27,610 nt of DNA, taken from a virus. Location of the stretch: positions 1 to 27,610 of IMG/VR virus record IMGVR_UViG_3300048694_000467; one strand, written 5' to 3'. This document shows positions 2,830 to 25,496 of this stretch, piece after piece (position 1 is the stretch's first letter; every line of letters starts with the position of its first letter). The notes beneath the pieces are model-generated. The model did no database searches. It worked only from the letters and a program-made list of their open reading frames with translations, and was not told the DNA's origin. The position numbers and the translations under genes were made by a program.

Positions 2830-4079
2830 TATAAATATTGTTTGAGTATATTTGTTATTCCTGAGCCTTGCTCTATTAAGAATCCTGTCACCTCAGCTTT
2901 AGACATTGTATGACCATTCTTATCATCCCAAAGACTCTTAGCGTTAGAGAACGCTGGAATTTGGTAAAATTTAATTCCGTTAAAATCATGACTTACTTCA
3001 TGATGTTTGTCTCCTGTGAAGATGTAGAAGTTATTATGGAAAGACCATCCTTCTCTAAATTCTATTGGAAACAATGCTGCTAACTTAGCAGGCTTAATTG
3101 CATCTCCATGGTTAAACATTAATGCTGAGCTACCATAGCTGATGTACTTTCTATATTTAGGACTCACATCAAATGCAAGTCTGTCTATGTTCTTAAAGTA
3201 GGCTTGTAACCATGTTACCATATGCCATCCTACAAACTCATCATGATTACCTGCTACATACACTACATTAACACTTTCAGCATATTGTAATAACATTGTA
3301 ATTACAAGAATCTCATGCTCACAGATGAACTGAAAAGAATCATGATAGGTATGTGTATTGGTCTGAGGAGTACCTTTTGTTGTAGTTCCTGAGTACTCAC
3401 TATTGAACTCATCTGAACCAATGATGTATGTAATTTGTTCTAGGTTATTTGAAAGCTGTGCCTGTTTTACAATAACTTCTAGCTTATATATAATACTAGC
3501 TAATCTATCTGAGATGTTATTATTACCATCAATGTCATATTTGTTTAAATGAGCATCTTGCTTATTGATAACTAACATGGCAGGATACTTATATTCAAAG
3601 AACTGAGGCTTCATAACATCCTGACTTATAGGCTTATATGAAGCTAAAAAGTCCACAAAGCTATCTTGAAACAGTTGCTCTGTGGACTTCTTTCCTAGCC
3701 AAGCTTTCACCTGCCAGTGGGGATGTTCTCCATTCCCCCAGAAGTTTTGAACATATTTAGTTACTTCCCATTTCTCTGTGTCTATCTTACACTTCTTAAT
3801 TAACTCATCTAGGCTTTTTACCTCTTCGTTAAAATTAGCTACTACCTCTCCTGTACCCTTCGCTAGATCTTCTGTAAACTTAACCACCCTATCTTCTAAG
3901 TCTGCAATATAGTTTCCAATCTCAGCATCTTCTACAACTCTTTCTTGTTTCCTTATCTCTTCTAGCAATTCGTCAATCTCAGTTTCTTTGATTCCTAGCT
4001 TTTCAGCATAGTATTTCTTTGATTTCTTCCAATGTAACATCTGCTGAAGCTTTTCTAAAAGGGATTGGTTTTCAGACAT
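2829..4079 (-). CDS. Calcineurin-like metallophosphoesterase with N-terminal HTH-like segment
   Basis: All motifs of the calcineurin-like (Mre11/SbcD-type) two-metal phosphoesterase fold are visible in order: DAH at residues 175-177, GSDEFN at 221-226 in place of the usual GDxxN, GNHDE at 277-281, NHGD at 323-326 and GDKHH at 356-360. Residues 13-42 resemble a short helix-turn-helix, and residues 40-100 are a probable coiled coil. The family hydrolyses phosphodiesters or phosphomonoesters, so a nuclease or nucleotide phosphatase role is possible. It is odd to find an enzyme heading the tail ring/tube operon. It lies just behind its own promoter (4108-4140) and is coupled by TAATG to the ring protein. 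The catalytic family is clear; substrate and location are unknown. Confidence 0.85.
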   Translation of the reverse strand: MSENQSLLEKLQQMLHWKKSKKYYAEKLGIKETEIDELLEEIRKQERVVEDAEIGNYIADLEDRVVKFTEDLAKGTGEVVANFNEEVKSLDELIKKCKIDTEKWEVTKYVQNFWGNGEHPHWQVKAWLGKKSTEQLFQDSFVDFLASYKPISQDVMKPQFFEYKYPAMLVINKQDAHLNKYDIDGNNNISDRLASIIYKLEVIVKQAQLSNNLEQITYIIGSDEFNSEYSGTTTKGTPQTNTHTYHDSFQFICEHEILVITMLLQYAESVNVVYVAGNHDEFVGWHMVTWLQAYFKNIDRLAFDVSPKYRKYISYGSSALMFNHGDAIKPAKLAALFPIEFREGWSFHNNFYIFTGDKHHEVSHDFNGIKFYQIPAFSNAKSLWDDKNGHTMSKAEVTGFLIEQGSGITNILKQYL

Positions 4080-4107
4080 ATATAGTTAGGTTTAGTTAAA
4101 ATTGCTG

Positions 4108-4140
4108 TAAAGGTACGGAATATTTTTGATATTTACCAAA
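4108..4140 (-). promoter_or_regulatory. Bacteroidota-type promoter of the tube/muzzle operon
   Basis: On the minus strand TTTG (4140-4137), a 21-base spacer and TACCTTTA (4115-4108) match the Bacteroidota primary-sigma promoter (TTTG, then TAnnTTTG) with one mismatch in the last base. It lies about 30 bases upstream of the metallophosphoesterase start and just after a terminator, exactly where a new transcript is needed. No start-site data are available, so this is a motif-plus-context call. Confidence 0.5.
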
Positions 4141-4146
4141 TTTAAT

Positions 4147-4185
4147 TAACTAATTTGATTAGATAGTTTAATCAAGTTGATTAGA
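4147..4185. repeat. Candidate operator: two TTGATTAGA copies 22 bp apart plus TAACTAATTT
   Basis: TTGATTAGA occurs at 4155-4163 and 4177-4185, a spacing of 22 bp (two helical turns), just upstream of the promoter at 4108-4140. Between the copies lies an inverted arrangement (TAATCA, three bases, TGATTA). The 10-mer TAACTAATTT at 4147-4156 also occurs next to the -33 box of the promoter at 25466-25496. Together this looks like an activator or repressor binding area; the protein is unknown. Confidence 0.35.
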
Positions 4186-4193
4186 GTTGAAAC

Positions 4194-4222
4194 AAAAACC
4201 CCCAGCCTAGAAAGGCCAGGGG
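4194..4222 (-). terminator. Rho-independent terminator of the fibre cluster
   Basis: Reading leftward, CCCCTGGCC, the loop TTTCTA and GGCTGGGGG form a 9-bp stem with two G-T pairs, followed directly by TTTTTG. It sits 36 bases after the stop of the threonine-linker protein gene and before the next operon's promoter, so it should end fibre transcripts. Confidence 0.8.
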
Positions 4223-4225
4223 ATA

Positions 4226-4252
4226 CCCTGTAAACCAACAAACAGGGTTTTT
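4226..4252 (+). terminator. Opposite-facing hairpin with T-tract
   Basis: On the plus strand CCCTG, a 12-base loop and CAGGG are followed by TTTTT. It faces the minus-strand terminator next to it, so the pair could block transcription from both directions. The stem is only 5 bp and the loop is long, so its strength is uncertain. Confidence 0.4.
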
Positions 4253-4257
4253 GAATA

Positions 4258-4788
4258 TTATACTGAACAAGCTAAAGAGCATGTAGCACTGCTTCCTAAT
4301 GTATCTAGTATTAATGCTACACCAGAACCAGTTGATGTACTAATCTTGTATACAAATCCACTATGTGAAATGTCTGAGTAATAGTGACTTCCAATATAGC
4401 TAAACCCTGCTGGGAATGCCACTAATACATCTGTTTGAGATATTGTACAGTCTACACAAGTGTACTCAGTTGCTAAATAATAATCATAGTCTACTGGTAC
4501 ATAAGCAGTTGTGGTTGTAGTGGTTGTTGTACTGCTACTTGATGTGGTGGTGGTTGTAGTAGTAGGAGCACCATCTATTGGCATATAAAGTTCTCTACTA
4601 CATGTGCCTGTAGAGATGGCTAATACAGTTGTGCTATCCACAGGAACTAATGTAGATGTATATCCAGCAAGTAAAGCTGCTCTTGATACACCTGTTTCAA
4701 ATGCTGTTGTGTAACCATCTGCATCTGAATAAAGGTCAAATGGTCCTACATTTGTACCTGCTAATGTTAATGTTATTGTTACTGTCAT
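4258..4788 (-). CDS. Two-domain virion-associated protein with threonine-rich linker
   Basis: This 176-residue protein has three parts: a beta-rich N-terminal domain (about 1-74) containing a DLYSDADGYTTAFETGVS stretch, a linker of Thr and Ser only (about 76-93), and a second beta-rich domain with CVDC and a C-terminal CSLAC pair. The N-terminal domain pattern recurs, as I recall, in small fibre-associated proteins of Bacteroidota phages, but no function is known to me. It is the last gene of the fibre cluster, 11 bases after the BNR protein gene and 36 bases before a strong terminator. The Thr/Ser linker resembles the C-terminus of the virion protein at 12399-13535, which favours a surface-exposed role such as a flexible decoration or adhesion domain. 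This is inference. Confidence 0.55.
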   Translation of the reverse strand: MTVTITLTLAGTNVGPFDLYSDADGYTTAFETGVSRAALLAGYTSTLVPVDSTTVLAISTGTCSRELYMPIDGAPTTTTTTTSSSSTTTTTTTTAYVPVDYDYYLATEYTCVDCTISQTDVLVAFPAGFSYIGSHYYSDISHSGFVYKISTSTGSGVALILDTLGSSATCSLACSV

Positions 4789-4799
4789 ATTGATTTATT

Positions 4800-6422
4800 T
4801 TATAATGCTGTAAAACTAGTTCCGCCATTTGTTGATAAGAATAACCCATTACTAGCACCAGCAAGTATATAAGTTCCTCCATTATCTGCATCTACACAAG
4901 TCCAACTTTTTACTCCACTTCCTGTTAAATTTGAAACAACATTTGAAGCGTTTATTGTTTTTATGTAAGTAGACCCACATACCACTCCATAAGTTATGGA
5001 TGTATCATTTGCAGAAACCCCAATCCAATAATCGGTGCTATTAATCATAGTCCAATTAGCTCCATAATTTGTAGATTTATACAATTTAAATGGAGTGCCT
5101 ACAGTGGGATTATTTGACATTGTTGCAAATAACTTACCACCATTTGGAGAACAACTAACATCAGTAAACCATTGGTCTGGATATCCTGCAGAAAGAGAAG
5201 CATCATTAAAAGTTACAGGACTAGACGTCCCATTTGAAGAATAGAAAATATATCCAGAAGTCCATTCTGTTTGAGTGGGAAGAGGACCAACTATATCTAT
5301 ACCAGTTACTATTGTTTGATATACACCATTAGAACTCATAGCACATCCTGAAAAGTTTTTGTTTTCTGGATAATAATTTGGAGAACCTCCATTTGGAGAA
5401 AATTGTGTATATGTATGAGATGAAGCAGTCCATGTAGAACCATAGTTTTGTGACCTATAAACATAATAAGTAAATCCATCTCCTGAATACTGTCCAACTA
5501 TTGTTTGATATTGTCCATCACCTGATATTGCACATCCTGTATAAACAGCTGCTGGCAAAGCAGATATGAAAGACCAAGTAGAGCCATAATTTGTAGATTG
5601 ATATGCATATCCTCCAGCTGCAACTGCTAACATATATTGTCCATCACCAGATACAGCAACTTTAGTCCAATAGTTATCTATTGCTATTCTTGTCCAAGTA
5701 GCTCCGTAATTTGAGGATACATTCAAAGAACCAACTGTATAAGCAGTATTGCAATTAATTACCATTTTAGTTCCAGACGTGGCAACCATATATTGCCCTG
5801 TATTTTTACTTACAGCTACTGAAGTCATTGCTACACCTAAGTTTAAAGGAGGTGGTGTAGGGCCTGTACAATTACCATCACCTGTTTCAATAGAAACTTG
5901 ATTAATTGTATTAATCACCTGACTTGGGAATGTAACATAATAAGGACCTGGACCTAATGATGTAAAACCATCTACACAATATGTATTATATTCGGAATCA
6001 TAACATCTAGCCCAGTTGCTTGGCATATCTGCATCTGCATAATATAATGTAATATCATATGTACCTATTTGGTCTGTGTAACCAATAGTACCATTACCAA
6101 TATCTAATGGAAATGATGCACCTGTTATACTCACTCCATTTACTTGTACATCTGTAATTGTTCCTGTAAAAAATCCATTTGATATACCTACAGCTGCTAC
6201 ATTATCTTTTAAATCACTTTTAACAACTAATTGATTATCTAACTTAGCTGCATATGGAGGATAATTTGGGTCAATATTTACATATGTATAAGCAGCTGTT
6301 TTAGTGCTTTCTTGATTAGTACTTGGTATTGTTGTTTTTGCATCAAAATATCCTTCACTTACTCCGCTTTGTAAGTTATTATAAGATACACATTGATTAT
6401 CTGCTAAGGCACTAAATGACAT
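4800..6422 (-). CDS. BNR/Asp-box beta-propeller tail protein
   Basis: The N-terminal ~190 residues of this 540-residue protein form a beta-rich domain starting with a NQCVSYNNLQSGV segment, probably the virion-anchoring part. From about residue 195 to the end run BNR/Asp-box-like repeats, recognisable as S-x-N-Y-G-(S/A)-x-W turns preceded by S-x-(D/N)-G-(Q/V)-Y blades. This propeller type is found in sialidases, sortilins and many phage tail proteins, where it often binds glycans. No sialidase arginine triad or FRIP motif is visible, so binding is more likely than hydrolysis. It shares a TAATG overlap with the collagen-like fibre stop, so the two are probably made in step. A receptor-recognition role is inferred. 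Confidence 0.7.
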   Translation of the reverse strand: MSFSALADNQCVSYNNLQSGVSEGYFDAKTTIPSTNQESTKTAAYTYVNIDPNYPPYAAKLDNQLVVKSDLKDNVAAVGISNGFFTGTITDVQVNGVSITGASFPLDIGNGTIGYTDQIGTYDITLYYADADMPSNWARCYDSEYNTYCVDGFTSLGPGPYYVTFPSQVINTINQVSIETGDGNCTGPTPPPLNLGVAMTSVAVSKNTGQYMVATSGTKMVINCNTAYTVGSLNVSSNYGATWTRIAIDNYWTKVAVSGDGQYMLAVAAGGYAYQSTNYGSTWSFISALPAAVYTGCAISGDGQYQTIVGQYSGDGFTYYVYRSQNYGSTWTASSHTYTQFSPNGGSPNYYPENKNFSGCAMSSNGVYQTIVTGIDIVGPLPTQTEWTSGYIFYSSNGTSSPVTFNDASLSAGYPDQWFTDVSCSPNGGKLFATMSNNPTVGTPFKLYKSTNYGANWTMINSTDYWIGVSANDTSITYGVVCGSTYIKTINASNVVSNLTGSGVKSWTCVDADNGGTYILAGASNGLFLSTNGGTSFTAL

Positions 6423-9400
6423 TATTTATTTAATTTAGCTTCTAATTCTGCAATACGTTTTTCTAATGCTGCTATTTTTAATGTATGAACATCCATGTAA
6501 TTTACAGATAATTTTTCATCTCCTGTAACTGCTTCTGGTATTACTTCTTGCACTTGTTGAGCTGAATAACCATATCTAACTTGATCTATATCTTTATCAG
6601 TACGAGTAAATTTAATTACATCTATTCCTAATACATCTAAAATAGGGTTTGTTTCTAATACATTCTTAAATCTAATATCTGAAGATTCAAAGAAAGAACC
6701 TGCTGTTAATTGAGATCCACTAATTGTAACTCCTGTATTTGCTGTAGCACTATTTGATGTACCATTAGCTGTAAGTACAGCTCCTGCAGTTGTAGGAGAT
6801 ATAGAAGTGAATCCTGTTCCAGAACTACCATTGGTTCCACTTGAGCCATTGGTTCCACTTGAGCCATTAGTACCTGAAGAACCATTAGTTCCAGATGATC
6901 CATTTCCACCATTAGCACCAGAAGTACCAGAAGAACCACTAGTTCCAGAGGAACCGTTTGTACCTGATGAGCCATTGGTACCTGATGAGCCATTGGTACC
7001 ACTTGATCCATTATTACCACTTAATCCACTTGTACCAGAAGAACCTGAAGTACCAGCTGCACCAGAAGATCCTGATGTACCACTAACTCCTGAACTTCCA
7101 CTTGTACCAGAAGAACCAGGACTACCAGGACCACCATTAGCACCTGCAGTACCAGAACTTCCACTAGACCCACTTGATCCACTAGAGCCAGAACTACCAG
7201 AAGAACCTGATGTTCCATTAGCTCCTGCTGTACCACTAGATCCTGAAGAACCAGATGTGCCTGAAGAACCACTAACACCAGATGAACCAGAAGTTCCAGA
7301 GCTACCATTAGCACCATTAGCACCACTTGTACCTGAGCTACCAGAAGAGCCAGAAGATCCAGATGAACCAGAGCTTCCACTTGTACCAGATGTACCTGAG
7401 GAACCAGATGTTCCAGATGCACCAGAAGAACCACTACTACCACTTGATCCAGAACTAGCAGATGTACCTGAAGAACCACTAGAACCAGAACTACCGCTAG
7501 AACCTGATGTTCCAGAAGTACCTGAAGATCCGTTAACACCATTTATACCTGAAGTACCTGATGAACCTGATGTACCACTTGCACCAGAAGATCCAGAAGT
7601 ACCAGAAGATCCAGAAGATGCACTTGTTCCACTTGAACCTGCAGCACCTACAGCACCACTAGTTCCAGAACTACCATTGGTACCAGATGTACCTGCTGTT
7701 CCACTACTTCCACTTGTTCCAGAAGATCCACTACTTCCTGATGTTGCACTTGTTCCTGCTGTTCCACTTGAACCAGATGTACCACTTGTACCACTTGAAC
7801 CTGATGTACCAGATGAGCCATTAGCTCCACTTGTACCAGATGATCCAGAAGATCCACTTGAGCCAGATGTACCTGTAGTTCCTGAAGAACCAGACGTACC
7901 TGATGCACCACTAGATCCAGATGAACCACTAGTACCTGTAGTACCACTAGAGCCATTAGTTCCGTTAGTACCACTAGTTCCACTTGATCCGTTTGTACCT
8001 GATGTACCATTTCCAGAAGTACCAGCAGTACCTGTTAATCCTGATGTACCTGCACTACCACTTGTTCCTGCAGAACCAGAGGTTCCTGAAGAACCAGAGG
8101 AAGCAGATGTACCACTTGATGCACTAGTTCCGCTTGTGCCAGCAGAACCACTAGTACCAGATGAACCACTAGATCCAGAAGACCCTGAAGTTCCATTAGT
8201 TCCTGAAGTGCCAGATGAACCATTCGTACCACTAGTTCCAGAGGAACCTGATGTGCCTGAAGATCCATTAGTACCTGATGAACCACTGGTACCAGATGAA
8301 CCAGCACCACCAGAGGCCCCTGCTAAGTTTACACTCCATGAAGAATATGTACCACTACCATTAATTGTAGTGACATTTACAGACAAGGCACCTGTGCCAC
8401 TATTGTAGGAAATAACAGAACCTGTCATATCGTTTCCTACACTATTAGCAATGATTGCACTTTGTCCTACTGTATAAGATAAACCTGTTCCAACAGTAAG
8501 GTTTTGTGTACCTGTACCTATTGTTAGGTTAGTAGAAGATGTTGTTGCATATGTATTACCAGAGATACCAGAAGTTCCACTAGAACCATTTGTACCACTT
8601 GTTCCTGATGATCCATTGGTACCACTAGAACCATTCGTTCCACTTGTACCACTTGAACCAGCTGTAGCAGATGTGCCTGATGTTCCAGCTGTACCTGAGG
8701 TTCCACTAGAACCAGAAGTTCCACTTGAACCAGAGGTTCCACTTGAAGCACTAGTTCCACTTGTACCTTTTGTACCACTTGTACCAGAGCTACCACTTGA
8801 TCCTGATGTACCAGAAGAACCTGTTAAACCAGAACTACCACTAGTACCATTAGTACCTGCAGTACCGCTTGAACCTGATGTAGCAGAGGTTCCTGATGAA
8901 CCATTAGTACCACTAGAACCGTTTGTTCCAGATGTACCATTTAATCCAGCAGTTCCTGATGAACCAGATGTACCTGTATTACCACTAGAACCTGACGTTC
9001 CAGAAGACCCATTTGTTCCATTTGTTCCAGCAGTACCACTAGAACCAGATGTGCCACTTGAACCAGAAGATCCACTTGTACCAGAAGAACCATTGGCACC
9101 AGATGTTCCAGATGTACCACGTGTACCACTTGTACCACTAGACCCACTGGTACCAGCTGTACCACTAGATCCACTTGTTGCACTTGTACCTGCAGAGCCA
9201 CTAGAACCACTTGTACCGCTTGATCCACTAGTTCCTGATGTTCCATTCAAACCACTAGTTCCAGATGATCCTGAGGTTCCTGTGTTACCACTAGACCCAC
9301 TAGTACCACTAGAGCCAGAAGTAGCTGAAGTACCAGAAGAACCATTTGTTCCGCTTGATCCAGAAGTTCCTGAACTACCTGAAGTACCAGATGTTCCGTT

Positions 9401-15457: not shown

Positions 15458-17011
15458 TTAGAATTGTGGTATTTCTTCGATTAACACTGTACGTGATAAA
15501 TCTTCAATAAATACATCACAACGGTCTTTCATCCAGATCTCATAACCAGGGAATTTGTTCGCAGAACTCATACCTTGAGACTTAGCAAAACCTAAGTGGT
15601 GACGAGTACCATCGATATAACCCCAAGTCATTGAAGGAGCACCTTTCATACGTACTTCACGGATGTTGTTTACCATTGAACCATCGCTCATTGGAGATAC
15701 ATCAAATACCATGAATACAGGTGTAGACTTTTTGTTTTGTCCAAATTCCAAGTTTGTTTGAGGTAAATCTAATTCTTTCAAGTGAATTAACTCAACACGA
15801 CCAGTCTCACGAGTAACCATTGCATCGAATGCAAAGTTGTAAGTGATGTGTTGACCTTCTCCTTGCATGTAACGATTACCAGAATCAGCCATGAAAGTTA
15901 AACCAGAGTTTAATGCATCATTCTTTAAAGCTTGTTGGAACACGTCAAAACCAGCTTCATTAGTGTACATTTTAACTCTACGATCCTTAACATCAACACG
16001 TCTGTAGAACAAATCACCAAACACTGAACGAATCAAGTTTGCAGTGAACTCTCCACGGTTGTATTGTACTAAGTTACCGTTATTTCTCATTCTGTGGTAT
16101 ACACCAGCAGAAGTACGTTTTAATTCTTGCTTAGAACCATTAGTCTTAACGGTACCTGGTTTAGCCCAGATCATACGCTTAACTTTTAATTCTAACATAG
16201 ACTTACGCATCCAGAACTCAATAAATGGTTCCCATTTAACATCATTACGAGTTAAAGGTAATTGGTTACGTCTTTGAGGAGCATATACTAAGATATCCAA
16301 TGGATTACCTTTGCTATCTCTCATCATTTTGTCATCAGCCCACTCAGTGATCTTGTGCTCATAACCATATGCAGAACCTAAAGATTCAAACATAGTGATT
16401 TGCTCACCTAAACGAGGAAGACCTAATAAGTCTTGATCGAATTCACCAATTGCAGCATCAACTAATTCTAATTCAATACCTACTTTTAAGAATGTAGCAC
16501 TAACGAAGTCTACTGTAGGATTATCACTTACTAAAGTGAAAGTGTACAAATAACCCATGTTCCATGGTTGAGGATCTTTAACCACATAGAAACGAGGACC
16601 ATACTGACGAGTACCTACAGAAACAATTGCATTCTTAGAAAACTCATTAGTATCAATAACTAATGTGAATTCTTGTCCATCAATACCAGGCTTAGATAAA
16701 TCCTGTGTAGAAGTTGGAACATCAATGATCTTTGGAAACTTGTAAGGAACTTGTACTTGCCACTTCCAAGCATCACTGTTGTTATCAATATAGTAAGGAG
16801 TGCTCTTGTTAATCATGTCCAAGAAGTCATTACTGTAAAGAGAACTCTGAGTGTAAAGGCTTATGATCTTCTTATCATAATCTGCTGGCTCAGTAGAGTG
16901 AAAGCTTTCCAAGTGGTTCGCATCTGTTAATTTACCTACAGCACGCTTGTCCATAGAAGCGACACGAGCATAAGTAAAACCAGTTAAACCTGGAATTGTT
17001 TGAATTGCCAT
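15458..17011 (-). CDS. Major capsid protein (HK97 fold, crAss-like)
   Basis: The 517-residue product fits the usual length of crAss-like major capsid proteins (about 490-510) and lies where expected: after TerL, portal and a scaffold-like gene. The N-terminus (IQTIPGLTGFTYARVASMDKR) and the motif-rich middle (MRNNGNLVQYNRGEF near 312) look like HK97-type shell proteins. Codons are biased (AAC, GAA, CGT, GGT/GGA, TTC more frequent), in line with the highest expression in the block. The leader is nearly pure A and T (AAATAAAAAAATG), typical of Bacteroidota translation starts. A long structured element follows the stop. No protease gene is seen next to it, so maturation by cleavage is uncertain. 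Confidence 0.75.
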   Translation of the reverse strand: MAIQTIPGLTGFTYARVASMDKRAVGKLTDANHLESFHSTEPADYDKKIISLYTQSSLYSNDFLDMINKSTPYYIDNNSDAWKWQVQVPYKFPKIIDVPTSTQDLSKPGIDGQEFTLVIDTNEFSKNAIVSVGTRQYGPRFYVVKDPQPWNMGYLYTFTLVSDNPTVDFVSATFLKVGIELELVDAAIGEFDQDLLGLPRLGEQITMFESLGSAYGYEHKITEWADDKMMRDSKGNPLDILVYAPQRRNQLPLTRNDVKWEPFIEFWMRKSMLELKVKRMIWAKPGTVKTNGSKQELKRTSAGVYHRMRNNGNLVQYNRGEFTANLIRSVFGDLFYRRVDVKDRRVKMYTNEAGFDVFQQALKNDALNSGLTFMADSGNRYMQGEGQHITYNFAFDAMVTRETGRVELIHLKELDLPQTNLEFGQNKKSTPVFMVFDVSPMSDGSMVNNIREVRMKGAPSMTWGYIDGTRHHLGFAKSQGMSSANKFPGYEIWMKDRCDVFIEDLSRTVLIEEIPQF

Positions 17012-17047: not shown

Positions 17048-18334
17048 TTATACAAACCATGATGTAGGTTTGGCAGGCTTAGAAGATTTAATAGAAGTTT
17101 TAGAAGCTTGTCTAGCAACCTCTCCAAATAACTCATTTGACTTTTTGGTGAGACCTGTCTTTTGAATAGTAGAAAGTGTAGGATCTTTTTCTAAGATTTT
17201 AAGTAGCAATGCCACCTTCACTTTTTTCTCATGATTCTCAGGACGTTTAAGCTCTAAGATAGTCTTATCAAAATCTGTGAGAGTCTCACCAGAATTTGTT
17301 TTGTACTTATCTGTAACTAGGAAATCTTGTAGTTCACCAGCCAATTTTGGGTTAAGAGGGATGCCATCAAACTCTTTAGCTTTCAACTTATCCTGCAACA
17401 CACTATTCACATTCTGAACGTATTGTTGCTTATATTGAGCTTGTTGTTGTAATTGGGCCTCTTTTTGTTGTTCCAATTGTTGAAGCTTTGCAGCTTCTTT
17501 CTTTATTAACACCTTATGATGTTTAGTAGCTACGCTTTCTAAATCACCATAGTTTTTAAGTCTTTCTACTTCTGTTGTAACATCTTCAGGATCAAACCCT
17601 TGATCTGTTAATGCTTGTTTGATTACAGCCACTTGATTTGCTTCTTGAGTAAGATCCATATCAGCGAATGACTGTATTTGATTGAATGCCCCAAAGTAGT
17701 CTTTAGGATCTACTCCTTTTACAAATATGGCATCAAATGCTTTTTGATAATCTTCTCCAAATTGACCAATGAAGTTGTCTACTATTTCAATAGCTCCTTT
17801 CTTTTTCTCAGTGTTAAACTTCTCTAAGAAAGCTTCAGGAGTTTCAATTGCTTCTTCTTCTTCATCATCACCCTTGGAAAATACACCTAATTTAAAAAGA
17901 TCTTTAGATAGAGCGGAGAACTGATTAGGTTCATTTCCTTTTCCTTCTTCATTATCATCATCTTCAGAATCAGATTCTTCAGTTTTAGGATCTGCTTTAC
18001 TATCTTTACTAGGTTTCTTAACTGGTTGAGGATCAGTGTCTTCTTCATCATCTTCTTCCTCATCATCTCCTAATAAGAAATCTGAAAGACCTTTAGAAGC
18101 ATCTTCATCATCTTTCTTAGGAGCGTCATCACTAGTTGCTGCAGGTGCTGCCTTTTTAGCAGGAGCTGCTGTCTTTTTATCAGGTTCATCTATCTTCTGA
18201 ATATCATCAGGATTAGATGTGGATGTCTCAGGAGCAAACAAATCTTGTAAAAGTTCTGTGCTTCCCATACCCATTTCCATAGTATCTTGAATACTAAAGT
18301 TACCCAATTGGGGATTATCTAGATTTTCAGCCAT
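17048..18334 (-). CDS. Scaffold-like acidic coiled-coil protein
   Basis: This 428-residue protein has a very acidic low-complexity region (about 60-170, with DDEEEDDEED runs and Ala/Lys/Pro stretches), a mixed middle, a Gln-rich coiled coil at about 278-315 and a basic Ser/Lys C-terminus (TSIKSSKPAKPTSWFV). This build, and the place between portal and capsid genes, is what is expected of a phage scaffold or capsid-assembly protein: disordered, coiled and with a basic end that contacts the shell. It is the first gene behind the promoter at 18366-18396, so scaffold and capsid may be made from a separate, stronger transcript. The leader AACTACATATG is shared with two other genes. Confidence 0.65.
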   Translation of the reverse strand: MAENLDNPQLGNFSIQDTMEMGMGSTELLQDLFAPETSTSNPDDIQKIDEPDKKTAAPAKKAAPAATSDDAPKKDDEDASKGLSDFLLGDDEEEDDEEDTDPQPVKKPSKDSKADPKTEESDSEDDDNEEGKGNEPNQFSALSKDLFKLGVFSKGDDEEEEAIETPEAFLEKFNTEKKKGAIEIVDNFIGQFGEDYQKAFDAIFVKGVDPKDYFGAFNQIQSFADMDLTQEANQVAVIKQALTDQGFDPEDVTTEVERLKNYGDLESVATKHHKVLIKKEAAKLQQLEQQKEAQLQQQAQYKQQYVQNVNSVLQDKLKAKEFDGIPLNPKLAGELQDFLVTDKYKTNSGETLTDFDKTILELKRPENHEKKVKVALLLKILEKDPTLSTIQKTGLTKKSNELFGEVARQASKTSIKSSKPAKPTSWFV

Positions 18335-18365
18335 ATGTAGTTGTATTTATTTGGTTTTCAAGGTG

Positions 18366-18396
18366 TAAAAGTATATTAAGTTAAGTTAATAGCAAA
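18366..18396 (-). promoter_or_regulatory. Bacteroidota-type promoter of the scaffold/capsid unit
   Basis: On the minus strand TTTG (18396-18393), a 19-base spacer and TACTTTTA (18373-18366) fit TTTG-N19-TAnnTTTG with one mismatch. It lies in the 120-base gap before the scaffold gene, leaving an untranslated leader of roughly 25 bases. The gap has no clear terminator, so it probably boosts the operon rather than starting a separate one. Confidence 0.5.
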
Positions 18397-18454
18397 GAGA
18401 GAAGGCACTATATGACTCATTATTTAATATAATATAGCATTAATATTTTTTACT

Positions 18455-18985
18455 CTAATCTAATTTGTTAACAAAATTGTCATTTATGAGCCTAAAGCTC
18501 CTTATTGGAGCAAGATCTGTAAGCGTAACTTGTTGTACCTCAACCCCCCATTTACGTGCTTCCACTCTCACCTTCTTAGTAAGTGTGTTGTCTAATTCTG
18601 AATCTGTACATTCTTCTAGTGTCATAGACATAATAACATTCTTAATGATACTAGATGACATATCTGATAGAGCATCTTGGGCATCATACACCTCCAATAG
18701 GAATGTTTTAACATCTGCTATCTTATATTTAATCACCCCCTTCACCACAATATTCTGTTTGTCTTTGGTATATAGAGATTGGGCATCTAAACTTAATGTA
18801 GTTACTACCACATGTTGATCTATCACCTCATCAAAGAATGGAAATTTAAAATGGAAGCCTGGTTGTAAAACTGATTGAAATTTACCAAATCTTAGTAATA
18901 CAGCAGCTTCATAGTCCCTGATTATTACAAAAGGGACTATTTGATACCACCAATGAGATAGTATTTCAATCAGTTTATCAAACAT
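18455..18985 (-). CDS. SPFH/Band 7 (stomatin-prohibitin) domain protein
   Basis: This 176-residue protein has a hydrophobic N-terminal segment (about 5-22, LIEILSHWWYQIVPFVII), followed by the SPFH signature: AAVLLRFGKF at 27-36, QPGFHFKFPFFDEV at 41-54, KDKQNIVVKGVIKYKI at 74-89 and KWGVEVQQVTLTDL at 145-158. Cellular stomatin/HflC proteins continue with a coiled coil for ring formation; this one ends just after the SPFH domain, so it is short. It begins two bases after the portal stop. In bacteria SPFH proteins scaffold membranes and control the FtsH protease. A role in the virion, in membrane protection or in host FtsH control is open. The domain call is strong; the purpose is not known. 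Confidence 0.8.
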   Translation of the reverse strand: MFDKLIEILSHWWYQIVPFVIIRDYEAAVLLRFGKFQSVLQPGFHFKFPFFDEVIDQHVVVTTLSLDAQSLYTKDKQNIVVKGVIKYKIADVKTFLLEVYDAQDALSDMSSSIIKNVIMSMTLEECTDSELDNTLTKKVRVEARKWGVEVQQVTLTDLAPIRSFRLINDNFVNKLD

Positions 18986-18987
18986 AA

Positions 18988-21570
18988 TTATTTAGTTTTC
19001 TTAGCTCTTCCCTTGGCATTCTCCTTGGCAACAGCTAAATCATTTGCTTGGTTTTCTCTAGCTACTTTCAATTTCTCCATTTCAATCTTCATCTTATCAG
19101 AAGCTTGTTTATTTTGAGATTGTATTTGAGCTAGTTTAATTTCATAATCCTTAGCAGCTTTCACTTGATCATGGGCTAACTTACTGGTTTCCAATACATC
19201 AGGAACACCACTTGTGTCTACATCAGATAATGGACCTGATTTAGCCTCAGCAGCAATCATTGCTATTTGAACCTTATTGATTCTATCTAACTCATTTTGG
19301 TAATCATCATGAGCTTGTTTCTCTTGTTGTTGTTGTTGAGCAGCAGCAATTTGTTGGTCAGCAATTTGTTTTTGTTGCTCCATTTGTTGTTGCTGTTGTT
19401 GCATTTGTTGATCTTGAAGTTGCTCTTGTCTTTCTTTAAGAGTCTTGAACACCTTCTTCATTTGACGTACAGAGTTTGTACTGTAAAGCTCAATGATATC
19501 ATATAAGCTTCCACCATTTTGAATAACAGCTTGAGATAATCCACGTAATTCTTGGAACATCTTTTGATCTTCTGGTCTGTTTGTCAAATACACTTTTAAA
19601 TCTCTAAACTTCAAATCTGTACCATTCACTTGTACAAATGCACTCTCTCCTTGAGAAGTGATGTATGAAATGGTAGATTGTGGCTTCTTAGTTTCTACAT
19701 ATAATGAAGCATCAATAATTGCTTGGTATAATTGTCCTAATACATATTCATGAGCTACAAACAAAGGTTCAGTTTGAGAGTAGGATTGTGTAATAGCAGT
19801 GTTTGTACCTGTAGCAGATTCACTAGCTGAGATAGATCCTAAACGTTGTTTAGACATACCTATTAATTCCCAACACTCATTCTTTAATTGAACAGCTAAT
19901 TGATATCTAGATTGAATCTCTTGCGTACGTGTAAGGTCAATGTCTCTAAATTGATTGAAGCTAGAAGGACTCTTTAAGTTCTCTGGACTGTCATCAATAA
20001 ATACAACTCCTCTATTACGTGCTTCCATTTCCCATATATCTAATGCATCCTGTGCATCACCATCTTTAGGAACTGGTACGTGTCTGATAGATGTTAAATA
20101 CACCTTACCCACTTCCTTCTCAAGAAGTTTGTATAATTGGTTCATACAAACATTGTATAAAACCTGGAAAGGTTTCATTAAATCTACTAAGCTCTTAGCT
20201 TCTGTATTCTTCACCTCATGTACCAATCCAATGATTGGACAATAAGGAAGTAATTTAAATGGTTTGATATGATAGATGTCTGGACCAATCTTGATACCTT
20301 GGTACCATTGGTTAATCCATCCCCATTCTAAAGATTCTTCTGTAGGAATAGTTCCTGATTTGTAATTCTCATCTACTAACATAGATTGCTCATTACCCAT
20401 TTCATCTAAATAGATAAGCTTTCCTATCTTTTTCTTACTAATCCAATAGGTACGAACAACAACATATTTATAACCAAAGCTACTAACATTTGATGTTAAT
20501 CCTAAGAAGTCTTTTAATCCATCATTGTTCTCCTTCATTTCTGATTCAATAATCATTCTAGTCTGAAGAACTAATGGATCATATGTATCATATTGTACAG
20601 AGTCAATACCAGGAATAGCATCTGGATTACCAAGATTAGATTCACGTACATTGATTAAACCATAATCTTGTAATGAGCTACGTAAGTGGTCAATCTCATC
20701 TTTTGTTAATTCAGGAATAGATTCAATGATTTCAGATAGTTCCATAACCTGTACAGTACCAGCAGCATATGCTCCTTGTGCTCTACCTGTAGGATCTGAA
20801 ATATACTTTCTATCAGGAGTGGTTAAGAAGAATGTATTTTTTGGGTTAGCCACTTCTACATTAAATCCAACTTTTGAGTTGTCTTCATATATATGATAGA
20901 ACTCTCTAGCAGAAATAAGCATGTCTCTAAATGCATCTTCACTCTTCTCCTTCAATACAAACTCAGCCTTCTGAGCTGTAAGAACATGGTTAGCCCATTT
21001 CTCAGCAATAGATGTGTAAGAATCAATTTGTTCTTTCACTTCCTCTAAGGTCATGTTTTGTAAATCCTCATCAGATATTTCTTCTCCTTTCAGAGCAGCT
21101 TGTTCTTGTAGTTTTTGTCTTGCTTGAGCTATTACATAGTCTTGAAGAATCTGTGTTTTAAACTCAAGTTCTTCAGACTTACTATCATCATCAAATGCTT
21201 TTACATTAAAAGAATCTGGTCTTTTACTTATCTCACCTACTAATTCATTAAGAGGAGTGGTGATAATAGAATACATTTTAACATAAGCTGGAAGTTGTAA
21301 ATCTGCTGTAAGCATATCTGTAAAACTTCTCACCTGTGGTTCTTGGTAGAAGTCTTCCATACGTAGAATTCCTTTTACCAAATCATAGTTCTTAACAAAC
21401 GTATCTCTATTCTTTACATACTCAGCATAAGCTTTGTTTGCAAAGTAGTCCATTGTATTCTTTATCCAACTCTCATCTTGCTTCTCTTTCTCAGTTTTGA
21501 ATTGGTCAGGGAATATATTCAGGTATGCGTACCTGATTGTTGCGTCTTTTGTATACCTTATAATTGCCAT
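18988..21570 (-). CDS. Portal protein
   Basis: This 860-residue protein starts at the TAATG overlap with TerL, the classic terminase-portal pair. The core shows portal-like features: a long helical N-terminal half, an IIGLVHEVKNTEAKSLVDLMKPFQ stretch near 446-470 and ARNRGVVFIDDSPENLKSPSSF near 535. The last ~160 residues contain a Gln-rich coiled coil (about 710-757) and a second Lys/Gln coil to the end, consistent with the barrel or internal helices seen in large crAss-like portals. Its length is at the upper end for phage portals. The portal forms the dodecameric gate through which the terminase packs DNA. The two-base gap to the SPFH gene suggests coupled translation. Confidence 0.75.
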   Translation of the reverse strand: MAIIRYTKDATIRYAYLNIFPDQFKTEKEKQDESWIKNTMDYFANKAYAEYVKNRDTFVKNYDLVKGILRMEDFYQEPQVRSFTDMLTADLQLPAYVKMYSIITTPLNELVGEISKRPDSFNVKAFDDDSKSEELEFKTQILQDYVIAQARQKLQEQAALKGEEISDEDLQNMTLEEVKEQIDSYTSIAEKWANHVLTAQKAEFVLKEKSEDAFRDMLISAREFYHIYEDNSKVGFNVEVANPKNTFFLTTPDRKYISDPTGRAQGAYAAGTVQVMELSEIIESIPELTKDEIDHLRSSLQDYGLINVRESNLGNPDAIPGIDSVQYDTYDPLVLQTRMIIESEMKENNDGLKDFLGLTSNVSSFGYKYVVVRTYWISKKKIGKLIYLDEMGNEQSMLVDENYKSGTIPTEESLEWGWINQWYQGIKIGPDIYHIKPFKLLPYCPIIGLVHEVKNTEAKSLVDLMKPFQVLYNVCMNQLYKLLEKEVGKVYLTSIRHVPVPKDGDAQDALDIWEMEARNRGVVFIDDSPENLKSPSSFNQFRDIDLTRTQEIQSRYQLAVQLKNECWELIGMSKQRLGSISASESATGTNTAITQSYSQTEPLFVAHEYVLGQLYQAIIDASLYVETKKPQSTISYITSQGESAFVQVNGTDLKFRDLKVYLTNRPEDQKMFQELRGLSQAVIQNGGSLYDIIELYSTNSVRQMKKVFKTLKERQEQLQDQQMQQQQQQMEQQKQIADQQIAAAQQQQQEKQAHDDYQNELDRINKVQIAMIAAEAKSGPLSDVDTSGVPDVLETSKLAHDQVKAAKDYEIKLAQIQSQNKQASDKMKIEMEKLKVARENQANDLAVAKENAKGRAKKTK

Positions 21571-23609
21571 TATGTAAACAATTTATTTTTATATTTTTTA
21601 GGAGCTCTGCCAAACATCCCTCCTCTTGCTTCTGTAAATAATACATTTCCTTTCTTCTTTGAGAACATAGCTTTCACTCTTTCATCACCTGATCCTCCCA
21701 CCTTTCCGATAATTGGGTCCATCTTAACAGCTTGAGCAATAGCTAATTCTGCAGCAATAATACGGTCAAAGTTACCTTGATCATTATATTGTATCACCTC
21801 TTCTAATAAAACAGGATCAAATATCTTACTCACTCCTGTCACTTCTCTTATAATGTTTCCATCTTTATCCTTCTCCTCATATATTGTTCCTTCCAAATAC
21901 TTCTTTAAACAGATGTGAAGGTAGTCAATTATCTTCTGACTTGAACGATGAATTCCATATTCTCTCTTCACTGTTGTATTAGGAACAATCTCCATAAGCC
22001 ATTGAGGTTGTTTCTCTAGATAGTGAGCATCTCCTTTAGCTTTCATATATTCTATAAAGGATATGTCATCATTCTCACACAGTGTTCTAGCATTGTAATA
22101 CTTGATAAGAAGACGTGCTTGCTCTTCCCATGTTTCTTTCTTATCAGGTCTAGCTACATACGAAGCTACGAACATATCTTGATACTTCTCACCTGTAATA
22201 TCATGCATTCGTTTATAAACATAAACTGCTCCCAATGAGGAGCTATATGCTGATTGTCCTTGTCTGTAAGGATCGACACCTGCTACATACAATCCATATG
22301 GAGGTGTGTCAACAGGAAATTCATATATAATTACAGGAGCATCTTTATTATCACTATTCTTAAGAGGGAAGTTACTAATAGGAGTTTTATCTGTAAACTC
22401 ATGTTTTACAACACCCTCATCATTGAACAATATAACAGGAGTTCCTGTTTTTTCTTGTTGTAATAATTTACTTTTTTGTCTTTTAGCAGCTTCAATATCA
22501 AAGATGTTTGTATCCTCATTCAAGAATATATCGTCCACTTCAAGTGGATAGTACATCTTTTCTTTTAAATAAGCTATTCTATCTCCAGCCTTTTTAAGTC
22601 TTTCTAAATTAGCAGTGGTTATTTGATCAGCTTTCTCTTGATTACTAATCAACATCTCTATATTATAAAGCTCAGAACCAAGAGGCTCATTTAAATATTC
22701 ACCTAATGATCCTTTTTCTTTGGCTTCCATCCTATACTTATTGGATATAAACAATCCATGTATACGAGATTCATCTTTACTGTTATTATATGGAAGGAAA
22801 TTGAAGTTGTCTACATCAAACATTAAGCTTTTTGCATCCATGAATTTCTTCATATCACCACCAGTCCCAGTAAGAATGGGGCTACATCCCCAACCATAAG
22901 GAGTTGTGAAACCTGGAATAGCAGCTTGTAAGCCTCGAAGGAAAGATCCTTTACCAATCTCATCTATAATTAATTTACGTGGTTTAGTACCTGCAATTGC
23001 CTCTTCATTATTACCCTCATCAAGGTTACGGATAAGGATAGAAGAGAAAGGGATACGTTCACCAGACCTAGTCTTTATACCAAGTGTAACCTGGTTCTTC
23101 CAGTTATCCTCAATCCTCTGCCACCTCCAATATTCTGGAATGAAGTTTAACCCCTTATCAATCTTATCTGTAATAAGTTTAATATCTGGGGCATTCAAAC
23201 CAGCAATAATGTTTTGGGAGTTTTCGTCAAACGTAGCTCCCCATGCTATATAAGATGCCTCAAGAACAGATTTAGCAAAACGTCTAATACCTAGAATGAG
23301 TAAGCCCTTTTTTTCAGTTTGAGCTCTATCAATTTCGTTTGTCACAATCCATTCATTGTCCCTTAAAAAAGGGTTGGCATATTTTTGAGATATTCTACCT
23401 CTATCATCTATAACATCCACTTCTGTATGCCAGATGTTTAGATGCCAATATAAAAAGGGGTTGATATAAACACCCCCCATCACAGCTCCATTTAAACAAA
23501 GCTCTTTGTGAAAATCATAAAAAGGCTTATACTCAGAAGAATCTTTATCTGGAAGTCTCTTCTGGTTTATAAACCAATCTTTATAATCTATACTTTGTAG
23601 TTCGTTCAT
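21570..23609 (-). CDS. terL: Large terminase subunit (ATPase-nuclease)
   Basis: This 679-residue DNA-packaging motor has its main motifs in order. A Walker A-like GIRRFAKS lies at 107-114, with Arg-Arg where Gly is more common. Walker B LIIDEIGK spans 213-220, with catalytic Asp216-Glu217. A TGTGGD coupling motif lies at 247-252. The nuclease domain has VAGVDPYRQG near 442-451 (Asp446), CENDD at 511-515, and NFDRIIAAELAIA with Asp615. The N-terminal ~85 residues are the usual lid region. Both ends are joined by TAATG to the small gene upstream and the portal downstream. The motifs are read directly; the headful cutting mechanism cannot be judged here. Confidence 0.9.
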   Translation of the reverse strand: MNELQSIDYKDWFINQKRLPDKDSSEYKPFYDFHKELCLNGAVMGGVYINPFLYWHLNIWHTEVDVIDDRGRISQKYANPFLRDNEWIVTNEIDRAQTEKKGLLILGIRRFAKSVLEASYIAWGATFDENSQNIIAGLNAPDIKLITDKIDKGLNFIPEYWRWQRIEDNWKNQVTLGIKTRSGERIPFSSILIRNLDEGNNEEAIAGTKPRKLIIDEIGKGSFLRGLQAAIPGFTTPYGWGCSPILTGTGGDMKKFMDAKSLMFDVDNFNFLPYNNSKDESRIHGLFISNKYRMEAKEKGSLGEYLNEPLGSELYNIEMLISNQEKADQITTANLERLKKAGDRIAYLKEKMYYPLEVDDIFLNEDTNIFDIEAAKRQKSKLLQQEKTGTPVILFNDEGVVKHEFTDKTPISNFPLKNSDNKDAPVIIYEFPVDTPPYGLYVAGVDPYRQGQSAYSSSLGAVYVYKRMHDITGEKYQDMFVASYVARPDKKETWEEQARLLIKYYNARTLCENDDISFIEYMKAKGDAHYLEKQPQWLMEIVPNTTVKREYGIHRSSQKIIDYLHICLKKYLEGTIYEEKDKDGNIIREVTGVSKIFDPVLLEEVIQYNDQGNFDRIIAAELAIAQAVKMDPIIGKVGGSGDERVKAMFSKKKGNVLFTEARGGMFGRAPKKYKNKLFT

Positions 23610-25465: not shown

Positions 25466-25496
25466 CAAAGGTATGTATAACCTACGGATCTACAAA
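25466..25496 (-). promoter_or_regulatory. Perfect Bacteroidota-type promoter of the packaging operon
   Basis: On the minus strand TTTG (25496-25493), a 19-base spacer and TACCTTTG (25473-25466) match the TTTG and TAnnTTTG boxes without mismatch. The start codon at 25453 is so close that the transcript would be nearly leaderless. The -33 box is overlapped by an inverted repeat at 25495-25513. Confidence 0.65.

Follow-up and report, generated by a model that had tools for sequence, protein, structure and literature searches.

We found that a crass-like phage carries, directly behind its portal gene, a gene for a 176 aa SPFH/Band 7 protein, which most likely acts as an optional factor directed at the host rather than as a component of the particle. 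The window, i.e., the whole stretch of DNA analysed, is a 27.6 kb (27,610 nucleotides) viral fragment, and its SPFH protein resembles a stomatin reduced in length (mini-stomatin 'type A'). We tentatively read the gene as an optional accessory ('moron'-like) gene for a late, cytosolic mini-stomatin acting on the host membrane or on SPFH assemblies, a reading to which we give somewhat less than an even chance. It is built on the fold prediction, the lack of a transmembrane (TM) segment, the missing tail, a slot that stays fixed, empty sites that are clean, the replacement of one type by another and purifying selection; to these we add, by inference, membrane binding, a host target, late timing, a benefit to the phage and a mechanism.

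The phage fragment and its short SPFH protein

The window comes from a member of Crassvirales that has no close relatives in culture. Its minus strand encodes the large terminase (terL, 21570..23609; phrog_6681, 4e-88), the portal (18988..21570; phrog_6547, 7e-98; P22_portal, 8e-15), the SPFH protein (18455..18985), a scaffold-like protein (17048..18334), the crassvirus major capsid protein (MCP, 15458..17011; PF23898, 2.6e-28) and ring/tail proteins; the crassvirus MCP, portal and terL as well as the order terL-portal-scaffold-MCP are those of Crassvirales. The label 'scaffold' is positional, given to an acidic, Q/E-rich product whose sole match is phrog_16294 (4e-10; function not assigned). 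The portal is ~25-31% identical to portals of the closest annotated phages examined, the strongest annotated match being that of Leptolyngbya phage Lbo-JY46 (29%), and relatives are encoded on hundreds of IMG/VR stretches. Looking for the host through portal-bearing bacterial assemblies returned a single match, a 4.2 kb contig (L503; JACIXZ010000031.1) with a crass-like portal 70% identical in a Tissierellales MAG, which was set aside as a probable binning error.

The SPFH ORF (18455..18985, minus strand) starts with ATG, and the portal stop lies exactly two bases (18986-18987) upstream. An earlier note, made from the letters of the sequence, had described an SPFH protein at this place between portal and scaffold, and the ORF coordinates, Pfam and AlphaFold2/Foldseek agree with it. 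Residues 20-159 (18509..18928) match PF01145 (Band_7) with E=6.3e-29 and 101.7 bits (cut-off 23.6), over profile positions 2-147 of 176. By phmmer, the PDB matches were QmcA (best, 1.3e-11), stomatin, HflK and HflC, with E values from 1e-11 to 1e-7. The fold that the earlier note had supposed is present in the AlphaFold2 model (built from 21 relatives; pLDDT 79, pTM 0.64), which gave 63 matches in the PDB (E<=0.001) with SPFH proteins at the top. Human stomatin structures took the top five places in Foldseek (5e-14, TM 0.78), followed by HflK (6.5e-13) and QmcA (4.5e-11), with prohibitin also behind stomatin. As judged by profile and predicted structure, the phage protein is a true member of the SPFH/Band 7 family. 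Its best-scoring NCBIfam models are HflK (TIGR01933; 75.8 bits vs a curated cut-off of 159.4, E 3.5e-21) and HflC (TIGR01932; 57.1 vs 134.4 bits, E 1.2e-15), both under half of the cut-off; it is therefore an SPFH protein, but neither HflK nor HflC.

The protein is short at one end and altered at the other. Of 138 sequences, 130 are 176 aa long, and the protein ends 17 residues past the SPFH match, so the stomatin-type C-terminal helical oligomerisation region is absent and the shortening to an N-terminal segment plus SPFH domain, claimed earlier, is borne out. Since the last 13 of these codons (164-176; 18455..18496 with the stop) are of low confidence (pLDDT <50) with no C-terminal coiled coil after them, the cage-building helical tail is missing. 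At the other end, residues 2-16 (codons at 18938..18982) form a predicted, strongly amphipathic helix with a moment of 0.58, reached by none of 500 shuffles, and this helix, a likely membrane contact by hydropathy, hydrophobic moment and model, is present in type A sequences. The N-terminal TM helix that places the SPFH domain of HflK/HflC in the periplasm is lacking: the maximal 19-residue Kyte-Doolittle mean near the N-terminus is 1.24 (family median 1.25), against 3.36 for the yardstick, the E. coli HflC N-terminus entered by hand. What stands of the 'membrane part' proposed earlier is the retained N-terminal segment with its amphipathic helix, and what falls is a transmembrane character; through this helix, the protein would instead bind the inner face of the membrane.

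The slot between portal and scaffold

The SPFH gene lies between portal and scaffold in every SPFH-bearing relative of the clade, usually 2-12 nt after the portal, and so keeps its place beside the portal, a point that the earlier note had proposed to check. Its presence is variable. Of the 80 loci whose portals are closest to that of the window, SPFH is present in 60 and missing from 20, and the latter have portals 82-86% identical, intact portal, scaffold and capsid genes and mostly no replacement. Across 133 distinct portals, 75 are accompanied by type A SPFH, 11 by a divergent type B in the same slot (25-29% identical to the window protein in the two members compared; Band_7 2e-14) and 47 by none. 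SPFH-bearing genomes carry exactly one copy, and no copy was found elsewhere in near-complete SPFH-less genomes (110-117 kb) of the clade. Empty slots are clean, the portal stop being followed by the same downstream region as in SPFH-bearing genomes, and the portal-scaffold gap is ~130-145 bp in most empty sites vs ~650 bp in occupied ones. The slot of the outgroups Lbo-JY46, cr10_1 and phi17:2 holds no annotated SPFH gene.

Other genes also occupy this slot. Two small overlapping ORFs, without a Pfam match and the second with the motif HEHFH, replace SPFH in three loci (L120, 12586-13054; L133; L140), and a fourth (L189) has a gap of the same length and similar sequence. An additional ~65 aa ORF precedes SPFH in L055, L060 and L076, and an endonuclease VII-type gene (L146:8712-9134; PF02945, 8e-26) lies between portal and SPFH in another; it is possibly a homing endonuclease that could drive slot exchange. 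Such varied occupants (type A, type B, ORFs with an HExxH motif, extra ORFs, or nothing) indicate that the portal-scaffold junction in these phages is a cassette site that takes up optional genes. In the empty slots of L145, L107, L118, L098 and L112, the portal stop is followed by a short inverted repeat (e.g., TCTAACC-AAATA-GGTTAGA), and its 3' half persists behind the SPFH gene in type B genomes. In terms of morons, the gene shows accessory presence and absence between conserved structural genes (60/80 vs 20/80, with clean empty sites); its own promoter and terminator are missing, as it starts two bases from the portal and a promoter-like site lies behind it.

That site belongs to an intergenic region (18335..18454, minus strand) which the empty-site alignment showed to be conserved with and without SPFH. 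The region contains TTAATGCTATATTAT at 18429-18443 and, ahead of the scaffold/capsid unit, TTTG-N19-TACTTTTA at 18366..18396; downstream of most empty slots, the arrangement TTAATGCTATATTAT ... TTTG-N19-TAnnTTT ... AACTACAT-ATG is as in SPFH-bearing genomes. We take TTTG-N19-TAnnTTT to be the Bacteroidota-type promoter consensus. Two matches in the window vs 1.47 expected are weak alone, and the 18366..18396 site is conserved across relatives. Bacteroidota are the usual hosts of the crass-like order, and the site, as a sequence pattern, weakly fits such a host. As the promoter-like element lies after the SPFH gene, the gene is probably part of the terL-portal transcription unit. The only other window match to TTTG-N18-20-TANNTTTR (25466-25496, minus strand) directly precedes the genes with which the terminase unit begins and may be its promoter.

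The history of the gene is neither that of a fixed structural gene nor that of a recent stray insertion. On the portal tree, the type A label takes 16 changes, of which supported branches force 12, vs 43 for shuffled labels, the type B label takes five, and the slot is empty in the outgroups and several early branches. At least 12 changes for type A against 43 are indicative of a gene that is inherited, yet repeatedly gained, lost or swapped. Median dN/dS is 0.07 for SPFH, similar to MCP (0.06) and terL (0.08), with higher values for portal (0.11) and scaffold (0.19); by these sequence comparisons, the gene is under strong purifying selection. A sporadic, recent insertion, which the earlier note had considered, does not describe a gene that occurs widely, has diverged and is kept by purifying selection, though it is patchy and has been gained, lost or replaced repeatedly. 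A profile search of bacterial genome contigs with the SPFH alignment for a bacterial source gave no relatives. Gene-pair distance correlations in the module are only 0.27-0.60, the lowest being SPFH-portal (0.27), which suggests recombination throughout the packaging/head module. The variable columns associated with SPFH presence (p<1e-4) amount to 19% in terL, 12% in scaffold, 9% in MCP and 5.5% in portal, percentages which lack phylogenetic correction and are meaningful only as a comparison between genes.

Possible roles of the SPFH protein

In the reading that we favour, the gene occupies a cassette slot at a fixed point in the late operon for packaging, and a cytosolic mini-stomatin would attach through its N-terminal amphipathic helix to the inner face of the host inner membrane. 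There, late in infection, it would join or block host SPFH scaffolds (stomatin-, QmcA- or HflK/C-like) or occupy membrane microdomains, and host membrane organisation or proteolysis would be altered in the phage's favour. The C-terminal tail of SPFH proteins closes rings into cages, and joining or blocking host scaffolds, or occupying microdomains, is the most likely course because the phage protein keeps the SPFH domain and lacks that tail. An essential role in the head is hard to reconcile with the accessory distribution, and the portal columns being least associated with SPFH presence is as expected for a factor which does not bind the portal. As a counterpoint, the constant place within a few bases of the portal may point to a function tied to portal synthesis.

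Another reading is a role in head assembly, which starts at the inner membrane and in which the protein would tether the portal or procapsid there. The gene is always beside the portal and nowhere else in the clade, its usual distance of 2-12 nt makes translational coupling probable, and the modelled amphipathic helix would probably bind membrane. Nevertheless, the gene is missing from one in four of the nearest relatives, whose scaffold and capsid genes are present, the slot of the outgroups has no annotated SPFH, and portal columns show no special association, with the SPFH-portal distance correlation the lowest. Portal-SPFH co-adaptation was accordingly rejected, portal being the least associated gene. 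The procapsid anchor suggested in the earlier note is weakened by these absences and by the portal columns, and we regard it as unlikely. We also consider it quite unlikely that the protein serves superinfection exclusion or counter-defence by a membrane change that blocks the injection of other phages or a membrane-acting defence: patchy distribution, type replacement and purifying selection fit conflict genes, but a place among packaging genes is late for exclusion, PADLOC-DB contained no defence-system match for the protein, and the literature searched held no SPFH anti-defence protein. SPFH proteins commonly regulate membrane proteases, and HflK and HflC as the best-scoring models would suit a mimic that shields assembly factors from FtsH, as the earlier note had proposed. 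Control of the HflK/HflC type requires a periplasmic SPFH domain, as in HflK and HflC, which meet FtsH in the periplasm. The phage protein scores under half of the curated cut-offs, has stomatin as its best structural match, has no TM helix to put its SPFH domain in the periplasm and consists of the SPFH part, the helical and C-terminal parts from which the HflK/C cage is made being absent. The lack of a TM segment and of an oligomerising tail argues against HflK/HflC-like control of FtsH; this link is not supported, and we hold it distinctly improbable.

A phage-encoded pairing of the SPFH protein with a membrane-anchored HExxH protein was also weighed. This family (~145 aa; N-terminal TM or lipobox-like segment; HExxH...TEExYAY; related to phrog_1365) is encoded far from SPFH in most genomes, at a second variable site among conserved replication-region genes, with an HNH-like/PhoH region on one side and a conserved gene of ~90 aa on the other (e.g., L298:6000-6437, minus strand, equal to G008 100705-101142, and nine other genomes). 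In the first gene-content comparison of 20 near-complete genomes, it was found in 10 of the 12 with SPFH and none of the eight without; extended counts gave 20/22 vs 0/9, with both SPFH types, and of 1275 mid-frequency family pairs, only three at most show a stronger positive association than this one. The one apparent exception (G056) is a fragment without portal. These raw counts are striking but not phylogenetically independent: they reduce to 2-4 independent events with non-significant sign tests (p 0.125 with the portal tree and 0.5 with a core tree of 30 genes), the HExxH search was itself the route to some of the genomes, and two near-complete SPFH-bearing genomes lack the family. Further, the HExxH N-terminus suggests export and the SPFH protein looks cytosolic, so that the two are probably on opposite sides of the membrane, and a zincin fold was dropped, as a confident model (pLDDT 91) had no PDB match at E<=0.001. 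We therefore treat the HExxH protein as a lead and not a result. A two-part membrane quality-control device, with a late mini-stomatin and a putative metallopeptidase encoded in the replication region, the two being gained and lost jointly, is highly improbable; if true, it would act on host or phage membrane proteins, and a functional SPFH-protease pair as such is of equally slight probability. Two other small gene families, c3 and c1 (G008 5888-6085 and 7404-7574, minus strand; ~1.3 kb apart), co-vary with SPFH, c1 being found by tblastn in two SPFH-less genomes also.

Comparison with known SPFH systems

Among cellular proteins, stomatin (human STOM, PH1511) shares with the phage protein the SPFH fold and a predicted N-terminal membrane contact without a full TM helix. 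They are ~21% identical, the phage protein has an amphipathic helix in place of stomatin's hydrophobic hairpin, and stomatin's C-terminal helical/oligomerisation region is missing from it. HflK and HflC share the SPFH domain and are the highest-scoring curated family models, but the phage protein falls under their cut-offs, lacks the TM helix and the coiled-coil cage region, and is encoded by a single gene and not a pair. In the QmcA-YbbJ (SPFH-NfeD) system, QmcA is the best PDB sequence match, yet its C-terminal region is lacking in the phage protein, and no NfeD partner was found in 18 SPFH-bearing phage genomes.

Other phages carry SPFH/Band 7 genes too (e.g., DLP3/DLP5, 44RR, Aeh1, RB43, and Rhizobium and Agrobacterium phages), and partial alignments of their products with the phage protein reach no more than 39% identity. 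T4-like phages are among those for which SPFH genes are listed (PMC1524935), that of DLP5 was termed a moron (PMC5834331), and that of DLP3 encodes a 264 aa protein among mostly hypothetical genes (PMC7326821); the parts of these reports dealing with the genes give no tested function for them (PMC1524935, PMC7326821, PMC5834331). In the open-licence papers searched, nothing relevant on crass-like phages with SPFH or prohibitin was found, which does not prove novelty. Lbo-JY46 (PP438436.1), the closest isolate by portal, has the same gene order in the portal region and also one SPFH gene; however, its portal-scaffold slot is empty and its SPFH gene, in a longer frame of 273 codons, is elsewhere (3938-4483). 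It is a cyanobacterial phage with crass-like gene order, in a record without a Crassvirales label. Phage SPFH genes are already known but unexplained, and the dozens of close crass-like genomes in which SPFH has been cleanly gained, lost or swapped are a natural comparison set, at a fixed place and under strong selection, which makes the role of a phage stomatin testable by comparison, expression and deletion.
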